Assembly: GCA_913063035.1 (NCBI GenBank)
Contig: CAJXYS010000002.1
Coordinates: forward strand, 1 to 64,000
Direction: 5' to 3'
Length of the DNA stretch: 64,000 nt
DNA from: an uncultured Maritimibacter sp.
GTDB lineage: Bacteria; Pseudomonadota; Alphaproteobacteria; Rhodobacterales; Rhodobacteraceae
The position numbers and the translations under genes are program-made. Numbering within the stretch: position 1 is the stretch's first letter; each line of letters begins with the position of its first letter. Below are positions 3,924 through 15,162 of the stretch, piece after piece. Under the pieces are notes generated by a model that ran no database searches, was not told where the DNA came from, and saw nothing but the letters and a program-made list of their open reading frames with translations.

Positions 3924-4418
3924 ATGATCCGCAGAACCTTTATCGCGCTCGCCGCAGCCACCGCGATGACCGCCCCGGCCTTCGCCGACGGTCACGGCCA
4001 CATGGGCAAGGACATCGTTGACACGGCCGTCGAGGCCGGAAGCTTCGAGACGCTTGTCGCGGCCGTCCAGGCGGCCGGTCTCGTCGAGACGCTGAAAGGC
4101 GAGGGTCCGTTCACCGTCTTCGCCCCGACCGACGACGCCTTCGCCGCGCTGCCCGAAGGCACCGTCGAGAGCCTGCTCGAGCCCGGGAACAAGGATCAGC
4201 TGACCGCGATCCTCACCTACCACGTGGTGCCGGGCAAGGTGATGTCCGGTGATCTGTCCGACGGCATGATGGCCGCGACCGTAGAGGGCAGCGAGGTCAC
4301 CATCGGCACCGAAGGCGGCGTGACCGTCGACAACGCGAATGTCGTGACCGCCGACATCGAGGCGTCCAATGGCGTGATCCACGTCATCGACGCCGTGATC
4401 CTGCCGGGCGACAGCTGA
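3924..4418 (+). CDS. Exported fasciclin (FAS1) domain protein 1
   Basis: A 164-residue protein: Sec signal (MTAPAFA-DG near residue 22) then one FAS1 domain with its two hallmark boxes, [19 protein letters not shown] (H1 region) and [11 protein letters not shown] (H2 region), ending [15 protein letters not shown]. Single-FAS1 bacterial proteins are secreted adhesion- or surface-related proteins; a specific ligand cannot be read from sequence. The ribosome site is within the stem-loop at 3871-3921. A strong terminator hairpin follows at 4431. The next gene is a close paralogue, so the pair arose by tandem duplication. Confidence 0.92.
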
Positions 4419-4430
4419 TTTACACGGCGC

Positions 4431-4467
4431 ATCCGGGGCGGCCCACCGCCCCGGATTTCCTTTTATT
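4431..4467 (+). terminator. Rho-independent terminator between the fasciclin genes
   Basis: An 11-bp perfect stem (ATCCGGGGCGG / CCGCCCCGGAT, 4431-4441 and 4446-4456) with a 4-nt CCCA loop, followed by TTCCTTTTATT. It stands only 12 nt after the first fasciclin stop and 30 nt before the second start, so it should end or attenuate transcription between the paralogues. Confidence 0.8.
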
Positions 4468-4485
4468 GATTGGAGACCAACCGAC

Positions 4486-4977
4486 ATGAACCGCCGCACT
4501 CTTCTGACCACCGCCGCGGCCGTTGCCACGGCCGGCCTGGTGTCCGCCTGCGCGCCGATGGCGAGCGAGCCGGACATCGTCGACATCGCCGCGTCGAACG
4601 ACCAGTTTTCCACTCTCGTCGCCGCGGTCTCGGCCGCAGACCTGGTGGACACGCTGAAAGGCGATGGTCCGTTCACCGTCTTTGCACCGACCAACGCCGC
4701 TTTCGAGGCGCTGCCCGACGGCACGGTCGAAACGCTGTTGAAACCCGAGAACAAAGACCAGCTCGTCAGCATCCTGACCTATCACGTGGTGCCGGGTGCG
4801 GTGACCTCGGATCAGCTCGCCGGGCAGGAACTGCGCGTCGACACCGTGCAGGGCCAGGCCGTGCATGTCGATGGCACCGACGGCGTCATGGTCGACGACG
4901 CCACGGTGACCCAGGCCGACATCATGGCCTCCAACGGCGTGATCCACGTCATCGACACGGTGCTGCTGCCGGACTAA
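4486..4977 (+). CDS. Fasciclin (FAS1) domain lipoprotein 2
   Basis: A 163-residue paralogue of the preceding gene. The N-terminus differs: [21 protein letters not shown] ends in a lipobox (LVSA-C21), predicting signal peptidase II cleavage and lipid anchoring, and the paired arginines could also suit Tat export. The single FAS1 domain repeats the boxes [20 protein letters not shown] and [11 protein letters not shown]. The ribosome site GGAGA precedes the ATG at 4486. Thus one copy is predicted soluble and one lipid-anchored. Terminators flank it on both sides (4431 and 5002), suggesting separate control of the two copies. Confidence 0.92.
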
Positions 4978-10958: not shown

Positions 10959-11033
<75 letters not shown>

Positions 11034-11097
11034 TCGCGAAGACACGCGACGAAACGTAACCGAGGCGCACGCGCGCCGCGAGATGAGGAGAGGACCG

Positions 11098-11223
11098 ATG
11101 AAGGTCAAGAACTCGCTCCGTTCGCTTAAGAACCGGCATCGCGACTGCCGCGTCGTGCGCCGCAAGGGCCGCGTCTACGTCATCAACAAGACGCAGCGAC
11201 GGTTCAAGGCCCGCCAGGGCTGA
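11098..11223 (+). CDS. rpmJ: 50S ribosomal protein L36 (zinc-independent type)
   Basis: A 41-residue protein, [20 protein letters not shown] and onward, ending in RRFKARQG. It matches the C-minus paralogue of L36: longer than the 37-38-residue zinc-ribbon type and with a single Cys in place of the four zinc ligands. Such paralogues are known to replace the zinc form when zinc is scarce. The ribosome site GATGAGGAGAGGACCG sits before the ATG. A terminator follows 28 nt after the stop, so tRNA-Val-rpmJ looks like one short unit. Confidence 0.95.
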
Positions 11224-11250: not shown

Positions 11251-11280
11251 GCCGCCGGGCCCCGCGCCCGGCGGCTTTTC
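11251..11280 (+). terminator. Rho-independent terminator after rpmJ
   Basis: A 10-bp stem (GCCGCCGGGC / GCCCGGCGGC, 11251-11260 and 11266-11275) with a CCCGC loop and TTTTC following. It also lies 13 nt beyond the stop of the convergent pseudo-caspase gene. Confidence 0.8.
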
Positions 11281-11292
11281 TTCGTGCCCGGT

Positions 11293-12951
11293 TCAGGGCC
11301 GCGTCATGCCCGCCAGCATCCGCACGAGCACCGCGCGGCTGAGATACCCGGTCACCTCGAGGCCCTGGGCACGCTGGTAGCGGCGGATCGCGGCACGGGT
11401 GCGGTCGTCGAAGGATCCGTCCACCTGCCCCGGGTCATGCCCCATCCGCGCCAGCTGCGTTTCGACCAGCATCCGGGTGATCGGGTTGAGCCCGAGGGCG
11501 CGCTCGCCCGCGCGCGCCGCCTCGAGGCGGCCCGCCTCCTCGCGGTCGCGTTCCAGCGCGCGAACCCGGTCGCGGGCAGCCTCCGCGAAGGCCCCCTCCG
11601 GATAGCGGTCGAGATAGTCGCGGTAGGCCGCGATGGTGTCCCTGTCGCGCGCCGCGTCCCAGGCGCGGCGTTCCGTTTCGGGGATACGCGCGCGCCGTTC
11701 CGCCTCGATCTGGTTTAGGCGGTCGCGCGCGGTCTCGGCATAAAGCCCGTCCGGGTAGCGATCGAGATAGCGCCGGAGGCCGGCCTCGCCTGCGCCGCGG
11801 CCCGTCTCGTCCCAGAAGGCACGGTCGGCGCGTTCCGCCTCGCGCCGGCGTTCCTTCGCTTGCGCCTCCAGCGCGGCGGCGCGGGCGTCCGCCGCGTCGG
11901 CCAGCCGGGCGATCTGGGCCCGGGTCAGGTAGCCGGTGACCGGCAGGCCCCCGGCGTCCTGCCAATCGGCGATGGCGCTGCGGGTGCCGCGCCCGAAAAT
12001 CCCGTCGATGCCCCGCGTGTCGTAGCCGAGCAGCGAGAGATCCTGCTGGACGCGACGCCGGGCGTCGCGATCGAGGCCGAGCGCCTCTTCCACGGCGCGG
12101 GCCTCCCGTTCGGGCTCTTCCTGCAAATCGACGATCCTCTCGCGGGCGTCCGCGGCGAAGATCCCGTCCGGGTAGCGGTCGAGATATTGCTCCAGCGCCG
12201 CGACCGTATCGAGATCGAGCACGGCGTCCCAGTAGGCCTGCTCGAAAAGCTCGGCCAGCCCGGGACCGGGTCCCGCGCCCGATGGCGGCACGAGCGCCGC
12301 CAGATCGGAAACGAAGCCCGCGCCGCGCACGCCGCGCGGAGCCTCGGCCAGCGCCTCGGCAAAGGTGACCCCGGGCCGGAGAAGCCCGTCCCGCAGCAGC
12401 CGGTCGAGATCGGCGGGACCGCCCGTGACCAGCAAGACGCCCTGCGGCACGTCCAATGCCCCAAGGCCCGGGCGCAGCCCGGCGCCCATGTCAGGGGCGC
12501 GATCGTCCGTGCCCAGCAGCACGACGGCGCCGCCGGGCTTCCGGGCCGCCAGGCCAAGCAGGACGGAGACAGGCAGCCCGCCGGCCCCGAGCCCGGCCAG
12601 CCCCGGCGCATCGGCATCCATCGGCAGGAACCAGCTTTCACCGGCACCGTGCGCGAAACGTCCGTTCAGCAGGATCACGACCCGCTCGGCCGTTTCCAGT
12701 CCGGTGACGAGGCGCGCCACCGCGCCGGGCATGGCCTCGGCCGAAAGATCGCGAAAGGCGGCTACCTGGAACCCGCGCCCCGCCAGCGCCTCGGCCGCGG
12801 CGACGCTTGCCTCTGCGCCGGTGACCCGCGGCATCTCGCGATAGTCCCGGTTGCCGATCACCAGCGCGATATCGGCCGCCAGCGCCGCACCGGTCCAGAC
12901 CACTGCCAGAAGCGCGGCGATGACCGCGCGCGCCATCGCTTTCGGTGCCAT
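11293..12951 (-). CDS. Caspase-like (peptidase C14-type) pseudoenzyme with WD-repeat-like segments and two peptidoglycan-binding domains
   Basis: A 552-residue secreted protein (Sec signal ending GAALA-AD near residue 26). Residues about 27-215 follow the bacterial caspase-like fold (IALVIGNRDYREMPRVTGA, then WFLPMDADAP), but the GH histidine motif reads LNGRFAHGAG and the DACR cysteine region reads LLGTDDRAPD; I find no cysteine anywhere in the protein. Three imperfect repeats of about 34 residues share YLDRYPDG or YLDRYPEG, and two peptidoglycan-binding-1 domains are present (GYDTRGIDGIFGRGTRSAI; GHDPGQVDGSFDDRTRAAI). The start is the ATG at 12951 with GGAGGATCC. It lies 19 nt downstream of the ligase-like gene, in an apparent operon. 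Predicted as a periplasmic, wall-binding, proteolytically dead protein. Confidence 0.75.
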   Translation of the reverse strand: MAPKAMARAVIAALLAVVWTGAALAADIALVIGNRDYREMPRVTGAEASVAAAEALAGRGFQVAAFRDLSAEAMPGAVARLVTGLETAERVVILLNGRFAHGAGESWFLPMDADAPGLAGLGAGGLPVSVLLGLAARKPGGAVVLLGTDDRAPDMGAGLRPGLGALDVPQGVLLVTGGPADLDRLLRDGLLRPGVTFAEALAEAPRGVRGAGFVSDLAALVPPSGAGPGPGLAELFEQAYWDAVLDLDTVAALEQYLDRYPDGIFAADARERIVDLQEEPEREARAVEEALGLDRDARRRVQQDLSLLGYDTRGIDGIFGRGTRSAIADWQDAGGLPVTGYLTRAQIARLADAADARAAALEAQAKERRREAERADRAFWDETGRGAGEAGLRRYLDRYPDGLYAETARDRLNQIEAERRARIPETERRAWDAARDRDTIAAYRDYLDRYPEGAFAEAARDRVRALERDREEAGRLEAARAGERALGLNPITRMLVETQLARMGHDPGQVDGSFDDRTRAAIRRYQRAQGLEVTGYLSRAVLVRMLAGMTRP

Positions 12952-12970: not shown

Positions 12971-14194
12971 TCAGTCGTAGCTGCGCTGGTCCTCGATGAC
13001 CTTGCCGTCATTCGGCAGCGAGCCAGGGGCGCAGAGTATCACTTTCCCGCGCAGTTTGAGAGTCTCCTCCACGGCCTTCTCGAAAACCGACGGATCCGTC
13101 GCCTCGGTTTCGACCTGGACCGTCATGGTGTCCATCTCGCCGTCCCGTCCCGCGATGACCCGGGCCCGGGTTACGGCGTCGTGGCGGGCGACGAAATCGG
13201 CCACCTGTTCGGGACGGACGAACATGCCCTTGATCTTTGTGGTCTGGTCCGCCCGGCCCATCCAGCCCTTGATCCGCGTGTTGGTGCGCCCGCAGGGCGA
13301 GACGCCGGGCAGGACGGCGGACAAATCGCCGGTGGCGAAACGGATCAGCGGATAGTCCGGGTTCAGCGTGGTCACCACGACCTCGCCGACCTCTCCCTCG
13401 GGGACGGGGTCGCCGGTGCCGGGCCGGACGATCTCGACGATGACGCCCTCGTCGACGATCAGGCCCTCCATCGCGGGGCTCTCATAGGCGATGTTGCCGA
13501 GGTCGGCCGTGGCATAGCATTGCAGGCAGGCGATCCCGCGGTCGGCGTATTCCTGCCGGAGCGAGGGGAAAAGCGCGCCCCCGCCCACCGCCGCCTTGGT
13601 GAGCCGCGACACGTCGAGGCCCAGCGCGTCGGCCTTGTCGAGGATGACCTTCAGGTAATCCGGCGTGCCGGCATAGGCGGTGATCCCGATATCCGCCACC
13701 GCCCGGGCCTGCAACTCGGTCTGGCCGGTGCCGGCGGGGAAGACCGTCGCACCGACGGCGCGGGCGCCGTTCTCGAAGATCATCCCGGCCGGTACGAAAT
13801 GGTAGGAAAAGCAGTTCTGCACCACATCGCCCTCGCCGATCCCGCAAGCATGGAGGAACCGACCCATGCGCCACCAGTCATGGGTGGTGCGGCCCGGCTC
13901 GTAGATCGGACCCGGAGACTGGAAGACATGCTCCACCCCGGCGATGCCCCCGGGAACCAGCCCGCCGAAGGGCGGGGTCGCCCCCTGCGCGCTGCCGATC
14001 TCGGATTTCCGCAGCACCGGCAGGCCGGCCAGCGCCCCGGGCGTGGTGATGGCGTCCGGGTCCACATCGGCCAGCAGCCCGGCCGGCCCCGCCGCGGCCC
14101 GGGCGCGCGCGATCTGGGCCGGCAGGGCCGTGGCCAGGGCGGCCTGCCGTTCATCGGCGCTGCGGGTTTCGAGAGCGTCGAAATGGCGTGTCAT
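12971..14194 (-). CDS. Phenylacetate-CoA ligase family (PaaK-like) protein with degenerate ATP loop
   Basis: A 407-residue ANL-superfamily protein close to PaaK in length and plan: an N-terminal helical part, LPVLRKSEIG, YAGTPDYLK, then PLIRFATGDLSAVL and the hinge GRADQTTKIKGMFVRPEQV, and the C-terminal catalytic Lys in NDGKVIEDQRS. PaaK-type enzymes activate aryl acids to CoA thioesters with ATP. The usual Ser/Thr/Gly P-loop (SSGTTGKP) is replaced by QSPGPIYEPGRTT, so its activity should be tested rather than assumed. The ATG at 14194 gives a sensible N-terminus. Its position beyond livF and a second acyl-CoA synthetase at the head of the liv operon suggests a role in using the imported substrate. 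Confidence 0.8.
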   Translation of the reverse strand: MTRHFDALETRSADERQAALATALPAQIARARAAAGPAGLLADVDPDAITTPGALAGLPVLRKSEIGSAQGATPPFGGLVPGGIAGVEHVFQSPGPIYEPGRTTHDWWRMGRFLHACGIGEGDVVQNCFSYHFVPAGMIFENGARAVGATVFPAGTGQTELQARAVADIGITAYAGTPDYLKVILDKADALGLDVSRLTKAAVGGGALFPSLRQEYADRGIACLQCYATADLGNIAYESPAMEGLIVDEGVIVEIVRPGTGDPVPEGEVGEVVVTTLNPDYPLIRFATGDLSAVLPGVSPCGRTNTRIKGWMGRADQTTKIKGMFVRPEQVADFVARHDAVTRARVIAGRDGEMDTMTVQVETEATDPSVFEKAVEETLKLRGKVILCAPGSLPNDGKVIEDQRSYD

Positions 14195-14252
14195 CGGCGA
14201 ATCCCTTTCATGGCAGGCAGGAACCGGCTGCGGCAGATGTTCGCAGCATAAC

Positions 14253-14270
14253 TGCATACAATAGTATACA
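14253..14270. promoter_or_regulatory. Candidate operator between the PaaK-like gene and the duplicated-domain gene
   Basis: TGCATACAATAGTATACA is a near-perfect inverted repeat (TGCATAC / GTATACA around AATA, one mismatch). It lies about 60 bp upstream of the PaaK-like start and 80 bp upstream of the divergent gene at 14350. Its AT-rich composition stands out from the surroundings and its size resembles GntR-family operators. The binding protein is unknown. Confidence 0.4.
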
Positions 14271-14349
14271 CGGTAGAGGATGGTGTAGACTTCCCGCGCG
14301 CCCCGGGATTCCCGGGGGCGTTTTCCGTGCGGGTGAGGAGGACCGAACC

Positions 14350-15162
14350 ATGACCTACAACATTGACGACAGGGTCGTCTTCCACCCTGACCTGGAGGTC
14401 ATGGAGGTCGATTTCTCCGGGATCGACTTCCGGGATTCCATCGAGGTGAACCGTTTCTACGACCGGGTCGAAGAGCTCATCGCGGAGACCGGCGAAGAGG
14501 TCTGGTTCTTCCTCGTGAATTATTCCGGCTTGCGGATCGAGCCCGACGCCTGGGCCGCCTTCACCCATCGGGGAAAAATGGTGAATCTCGCCCACTCCCA
14601 GGGCACCGTCCGGTTCGACCCCAGCCCCGAGACGCGCGCCCAGATCGAGCGCGACGCCAAGACCGAGGCCTTCGATCCCAATCTGTTCGCCGATCGCGAC
14701 GCCGCGTTGGCCCGCATCAGGAAGCTGCCCTCCAAGCGGCTTCACCACGCCGACCGCACCCCCACGCATCATCCGAGCGAATACGCGCGACGGGTCGACT
14801 TCATCGCCGCCGACGGGATCATGACCGTCGACTTCTCGGATTTCACCTTCGCCCATTCGGGCGATGTCCACGCCTTCTACGACCATCTCGAAAGCGCGCT
14901 CGACCGAACCGGCCGCAAGTGGTTCTTCCTGATCAACTACGAGAATTGCCGGATCAACCCCGAGGCCTGGGTGTCCTTCGCCACCCGCGGCAAGCGGCTC
15001 AACCTCGCGCATTCGCTGGGCTCGGTGCGGTACGCGCCCGGCTCCGAGACGGAAGAGTCGATCCGGATGCGGGCCGAAAGCCAGGAATTCGACCCCAACA
15101 TCCGCAACACCCGTGCCGAGGCACTGGAACGTATCGCGGAAATGCGGCGCCAACGGGCCTGA
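14350..15162 (+). CDS. Internally duplicated protein of unknown function
   Basis: A 270-residue cytoplasmic protein made of two tandem copies of one domain (about 8-125 and 145-270). Both copies share a beta strand (EVMEVDFSG / GIMTVDFSD), an amphipathic helix (FYDRVEELI / FYDHLESAL), the core WFFLVNY / WFFLINY, AW..F..RGK, NLAHSQG / NLAHSLG and FDPN near the end. The strand-helix-strand order resembles STAS/SpoIIAA-like folds, but that is only inference. The ATG at 14350 has GAGGAGGA. It runs opposite to the surrounding ligase and liv genes, so it has its own promoter, and converges on livF. I do not recognise a named family. Confidence 0.6.
   Translation: MTYNIDDRVVFHPDLEVMEVDFSGIDFRDSIEVNRFYDRVEELIAETGEEVWFFLVNYSGLRIEPDAWAAFTHRGKMVNLAHSQGTVRFDPSPETRAQIERDAKTEAFDPNLFADRDAALARIRKLPSKRLHHADRTPTHHPSEYARRVDFIAADGIMTVDFSDFTFAHSGDVHAFYDHLESALDRTGRKWFFLINYENCRINPEAWVSFATRGKRLNLAHSLGSVRYAPGSETEESIRMRAESQEFDPNIRNTRAEALERIAEMRRQRA

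Follow-up and report, generated by a model that had tools for sequence, protein, structure and literature searches.

Discussions of caspase homologues in bacteria usually treat them as proteases and as the ancestors of enzymes of cell death. Pseudo-orthocaspases are recognised as a group (Klemencic et al. 2019, PMC6426788; SyOC of Synechocystis, PMC7889975), and 14 of the 582 alphaproteobacterial sequences in PMC6426788 come from Rhodobacterales. A caspase (Peptidase C14) domain combined with peptidoglycan (PG)-binding domains was reported in 11 of 671 prokaryotic metacaspase sequences by Asplund-Samuelsson et al. (2012, PMC3501461), where 25% of the alphaproteobacterial members are without an intact dyad. 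Both features are already known, separately. What is new here is that they meet in one widespread family of single origin, in which the substrate pocket is gone as well and whose members are annotated only or mostly as PG-binding proteins. We found no paper on this family in the literature.

The window analysed here is the whole stretch of 64,000 nucleotides from an uncultured Maritimibacter sp. (contig CAJXYS010000002.1). The first-pass annotation had described one of its genes as a caspase-like protein with lost catalytic residues, a signal peptide, three repeats and two PG-binding domains. Its coordinates were correct, with the gene lying on the minus strand, and all of these parts could be recovered (Table 1). 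The window translation contains NGRFAHGAG, with R98 at the His position, and LLGTDDRAPD, with D149 at the Cys position, as well as two copies of YLDRYPDG and one of YLDRYPEG.

Table 1. Features of the pseudo-caspase gene and its upstream neighbour (positions in the window)
Feature	Position	Strand	Basis
Pseudo-orthocaspase / peptidoglycan-binding protein, 552 aa, no Cys	11293..12951	-	ORF, Pfam, homologues, model
Signal peptide, residues 1-26 (basic n-region, hydrophobic helix, ALA-A cleavage-like site)	12874..12951	-	Sequence, by eye
Caspase-fold (p20 + p10-like) domain, residues 27-225	12277..12873	-	Pfam C14 28-93, VIA vs MALT1, family profile
R98, catalytic His position	12658..12660	-	Alignment with active Rhodobacteraceae C14 proteins
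D149, catalytic Cys position	12505..12507	-	Alignment with active Rhodobacteraceae C14 proteins
YLDRYPDG two-helix repeat 1, residues ~236-275, motif 256-263	12127..12246	-	Sequence, weak YfiO/TPR match, model helices
PG_binding_1 domain 1, residues ~296-345	11917..12066	-	Pfam, SleB PGB structures, model
YLDRYPDG repeat 2, residues ~376-414, motif 395-402	11710..11826	-	Sequence, model
YLDRYPEG repeat 3, residues ~427-463, motif 446-453	11563..11673	-	Sequence, model
PG_binding_1 domain 2, residues ~490-547	11311..11484	-	Pfam 495-545; lytic transglycosylase SltB3 5anz PGB match
PaaK-like adenylating-enzyme homologue, directly upstream, 19 nt gap (context gene)	12971..14257	-	Pfam, loci comparison

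In the Pfam-A search, PG_binding_1 (PF01471) matched two stretches of the protein well over its cut-off (103 bits, E 9e-30), and PG_binding_2 was also among the matches. Peptidase_C14 scored 24.1 bits against a curated cut-off of 21.4, over residues 28-93 only. A sequence search of solved structures gave a weak match of residues 24-118 to MALT1 (E 0.003), while both PG-binding stretches matched the PG-binding domains of lytic transglycosylases and SleB. PG_binding_1 was detected in all 70 family members, with D316, R324 and Q331 invariant and D511, R519 and Q526 nearly so across the family; these are residues typical of PG-binding domains. A predicted signal peptide, read by eye, was likewise found throughout the family.

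An AlphaFold2 model, built from an alignment of 70 family members, had a mean pLDDT of 92.6 and a pTM of 0.55, the latter leaving the relative placement of the head, repeats and PG-binding domains unset. Helix 4-20 of the model corresponds to the signal-peptide region. Foldseek returned MALT1 and caspases as the top matches. VIA-align superposed residues 25-225 of the model on residues 341-565 of MALT1 with Z 19.2 (180 residues, rmsd 2.9), and gave Z of about 14.5-16 for caspases 1, 6, 7, 8 and 9. The MALT1 paracaspase and caspases (PDB 7ak1, 3v55, 4i1r) are the closest solved fold, with Z 18-19 over the whole domain; however, these are active proteases, whereas the protein studied here is without catalytic residues. 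Additionally, a profile of the caspase region of the family picked up canonical C14 proteins from the same bacterial family at E values of 1e-15 to 1e-21 (Z set to 1000), active ones among them at 1e-18 to 1e-21. In a joint alignment, the canonical 'Y-A-G-H-G' and 'D-A-C-R' pair gaplessly with 'N-G-R-F-A' and 'G-T-D-D', and YxxYPxG-type repeats are also present on the canonical relatives. Since the C14 model scores over its cut-off, the pLDDT reaches 93, the Z against MALT1 is 19 and the family profile finds C14 proteins, descent of the pseudo-caspase from the Peptidase C14 / orthocaspase superfamily is secure. The caspase fold proposed in the first-pass annotation was therefore upheld, and a non-caspase fold is ruled out by the profile matches, the model and its superposition on MALT1.

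No homologue has a Cys at the nucleophile position (0 of 97), where Glu (31) and Asp (20) are commonest. The His position is occupied by His in 42 and by Arg in 27 of these 97 sequences, and a tree from which these columns were left out requires at least 16-17 changes between His and other states. Enlarging the set by 30 loci, with duplicates removed and locus L173 left out because of its wrong reading frame, gave again no nucleophile Cys, with His in 46/107 and Arg in 31/107 at the His site. The survey of about 105 homologues thus found the nucleophile in none. The Asp two residues before the Cys is Gly or Ala in 90/97 and is kept in one sequence (L012). Moreover, the pocket segment 'ATAPG-VA-DG-G-NSPFT' (14-17 residues, 'A-DG-g-NSPFT') is deleted in the aligned family members except L012, as is the later 'T-G-Q-PW' segment, for which L012 is partly intermediate. 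L012, which is sister to all other members, has no Cys either but retains GH, part of the segment and the Asp. From this one member we infer that the nucleophile would have been lost before other parts of the active site.

Even outside the active site, cysteines are rare: only two of the 97 homologues have any in the mature chain. As neighbouring genes average 0.76% Cys, about four would be expected in 552 residues, so the absence is not due to chance. The degeneracy noticed in the first-pass annotation is therefore real, both dyad residues being lost, but it is not a peculiarity of one gene, since it is family-wide and includes the pocket.

The window protein has none of the marks of an active orthocaspase: no His-Cys dyad, no Asp before the Cys and no DG..NSPFT segment. 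It counts as a pseudo-orthocaspase, resembling those of PMC6426788 in its bacterial p20 caspase fold (Pfam C14 over residues 28-93 only), the replacement of both dyad residues and the Rhodobacterales host. Nevertheless, the dyads described there are mostly YS, YN, FS or QC, whereas position 149 is here mostly Glu or Asp and position 98 His or Arg. The acidic specificity pocket is reported as conserved in the cyanobacterial YS and YN variants, while here the Asp before the Cys is lost and pocket segments are deleted. The PG-binding domains also set the family apart, the word peptidoglycan being absent from PMC6426788. The C14 and PG-binding architecture is shared with the metacaspases of PMC3501461, but those 11 sequences, which we compared by description only, are not presented as a single orthologous and uniformly Cys-less family. 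Active orthocaspases of Rhodobacteraceae (for example L030, L031, L059, L060) share the caspase domain by homology and also have YxxYPxG repeats of this type; in contrast, they retain GHG, DACR and the pocket segments and fall on the other side of the tree.

That tree (27 family and 20 other C14 sequences, quick-mode test, unrooted) places the family on one side of a branch with SH-aLRT 99. Full-length homologues with 39-50% identity occur in more than 90 other genomes, which excludes a chance occurrence. With the divergent L012 as a query and a cut-off of 1e-40, matches were found in 97 of 248 sampled Rhodobacteraceae genera. A search at 1e-25 of 289 alphaproteobacterial genomes, sampled from across the class, found only the genome of the window and one more of the same family, and all 80 loci with lineage-naming titles in a scan of GTDB species genomes belonged to Rhodobacterales-type organisms. 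Because the same dead version is kept in about four out of ten sampled genera, the pseudo-caspase is a genuine and widespread protein, probably a non-enzymatic one of the cell envelope, and not a single broken gene. The C14 model at E 0.001 misses 30 of 70 diverse members and the usual annotation reads 'peptidoglycan-binding protein', so surveys of bacterial caspases undercount the family.

Relatives annotated in this way lie on large plasmids in Paracoccus denitrificans PD1222 and other Paracoccus. One example is PDEN_RS23610 (WP_232290654.1) of PD1222, whose caspase head is dead as well and is followed by repeats and PG binding; its annotation is silent on the caspase fold. The relative on a large plasmid of this strain (L187:5158-6786) differs in having five YxxYPxG repeats and a single PG-binding domain instead of three and two. 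In R. sphaeroides, the PG-binding protein RSP_1880 co-precipitates with the divisome lipoprotein DalA (PMC10470522), and we mention it as a candidate member, as a lead only. At L076 (G023), two adjoining partial or full family matches represent a tandem duplication, in which there are several additional copies of the PG-binding domain. A caspase homologue at L046 (G027), from the same bacterial family, has lost the Cys (DAGYD) but kept the pocket segments and is an independent pseudo-caspase.

The gene order around the locus is FadD-like, livG, livH, livM, livK, livF, a divergent gene of unknown family, the PaaK-like gene and the pseudo-caspase. Beyond the latter lie rpmJ and tRNA-Val on the other strand, followed by N-formylglutamate amidohydrolase. 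Between livF and the PaaK-like gene, on the opposite strand, positions 14347-15162 (plus) encode a protein of about 270 residues with two tandem domain copies (WFFL[VI]NY...RINPEAW...RGK..NLAHS) and no Pfam match, and about 15 other loci carry it at the corresponding position. The tRNA-Val(GAC) and rpmJ (L36) at 10959-11223 (plus) are convergent with the pseudo-caspase gene, and a strong stem of 10 pairs lies between the two sides at 11251-11275. Further away, at 3924-4977 (plus), there are two successive small exported proteins, the second with a fasciclin domain and the first resembling its tandem duplicate. A defence system was rejected: there was no match to PADLOC models, and the neighbours are housekeeping and transport genes. 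A phage origin was also rejected, the PHROG matches being limited to the PG-binding domains of endolysins.

The PaaK-like neighbour does not qualify as a phenylacetate-CoA ligase, as the AMP-binding P-loop SSGTTGxP is absent. It is replaced by FQSPGP[IL]YEPG, invariant in the window protein (FQSPGPIYEPG) and 24 orthologues; motif A5 reads YATADLG, and the position of the C-terminal Lys is K, L or I. These proteins form a conserved odd subfamily of adenylating enzymes. The first-pass annotation had described this gene as co-transcribed with the pseudo-caspase and degenerate in its active site. It is indeed co-directional, ends 19 nt upstream and has an altered ATP-binding motif, but it is not an obligate partner.

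The reading that we favour, as somewhat better than an even bet, is a secreted periplasmic pseudo-orthocaspase that is held at the wall by its two PG_binding_1 domains and acts as a non-catalytic scaffold or adaptor. The main rival to it is that the PG-binding and repeat part alone does the work, the caspase domain being a remnant in slow decay. Such decay would fit with the caspase domain evolving fastest (mean pairwise identity of 32% versus 56% and 54% in the PG-binding domains) and with free drift at the former active site, where the His changed at least 16 times. Judging from the difference in identity, the wall-binding part may matter more than the head. However, ten close pairs gave dN/dS values of 0.05-0.28 for residues 27-225, near those of other regions, with few gaps; purifying selection still acts on the domain. 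The fold is also intact and modelled with high confidence, its Gly/Pro/Val framework (for example PQGV 169-172) is nearly invariant, and the Paracoccus member has lost one PG-binding domain while retaining the head. We consider a vestigial head unlikely. It is harder still to believe, and indeed barely credible, that a new active centre has arisen within the caspase fold. A basic residue at 98 and an acidic one at 149 do co-occur (48/75 versus 7/30, raw p 2e-4), but the association is gone on independent tree pairs (median p 0.69), and we rejected the pair as a replacement of the dyad. Catalytic residues elsewhere in the alignment were rejected too: a conserved Cys is found nowhere, nor is there a set of conserved polar residues. 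Among the conserved columns of the domain we saw no replacement catalytic site: the only polar residues conserved in at least 80% are Y37 and Q170, and the other strongly conserved columns are Gly, Ala, Leu, Val or Pro (A29, G60, G97, G140, G162, P169-V172, G177, G212).

Two further explanations involve partner proteins. The pseudo-caspase, the PaaK-like protein and the upstream ABC transporter of Liv type could form one functional unit, for example in envelope sensing for acid uptake or activation. Here and in 52 of about 76 loci with a readable flank, the PaaK-like gene is directly upstream on the same strand (with a gap of 21-517 nt in those loci), and the liv and FadD-like genes are syntenic as well. 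Yet about 22 loci are without it and have unrelated neighbours instead, such as histidine phosphatase, MATE or dihydrolipoamide dehydrogenase, and the products would reside in different compartments, judging by the signal peptide. Among 37 genomes of the same bacterial family, 16 have both genes, 13 the PaaK-like gene only, one (G018) the pseudo-caspase only and seven neither. The PaaK-less loci and the 13 genomes led us to reject an obligate link as a general rule, and a common unit is rather improbable. As it is kept beside unrelated neighbours, the pseudo-caspase appears to be stand-alone. A decoy or regulator of active caspases, in the manner of cFLIP and caspase-8, would follow the general precedent of dead caspase homologues, and five genomes (G001, G004, G007, G020, G026) carry the pseudo-caspase together with another C14 protein. 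Of the 17 genera of this bacterial family in which the pseudo-caspase was found, though, 12, including that of the window, have no other protein over the C14 cut-off and so no active caspase that it could regulate, and with the substrate-binding segments deleted it cannot mimic substrate binding. Both points make this role very improbable.

The fold by itself proves no function. Of the two roles named in the first-pass annotation, a scaffold is the best remaining one, while nothing specific speaks for a sensor. The wall-held scaffold or adaptor would be exported through Sec, given the signal peptide predicted family-wide, and would bind peptidoglycan via its two PG_binding_1 domains. Its caspase-fold head would serve as a structural or protein-interaction module that presents or positions another envelope protein beside peptidoglycan. 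The YxxYPxG two-helix repeats may act as spacers or extra interaction surfaces, and no chemistry would be expected of the protein.

In this large family of single origin, the fold is maintained by selection despite the lost active site and pocket, and the PG-binding domains would tie it to the cell wall. We put forward, tentatively, that the caspase fold was turned once into a structural or ligand-binding head of a PG-anchored envelope protein of Rhodobacteraceae, which might for example position wall enzymes or envelope complexes. As Paracoccus denitrificans, which is genetically tractable, has a member, the role of the family can be tested. If the proposal is true, these proteins would be a scaffold of the cell wall that derives from a caspase but has no relation to proteolysis or cell death.
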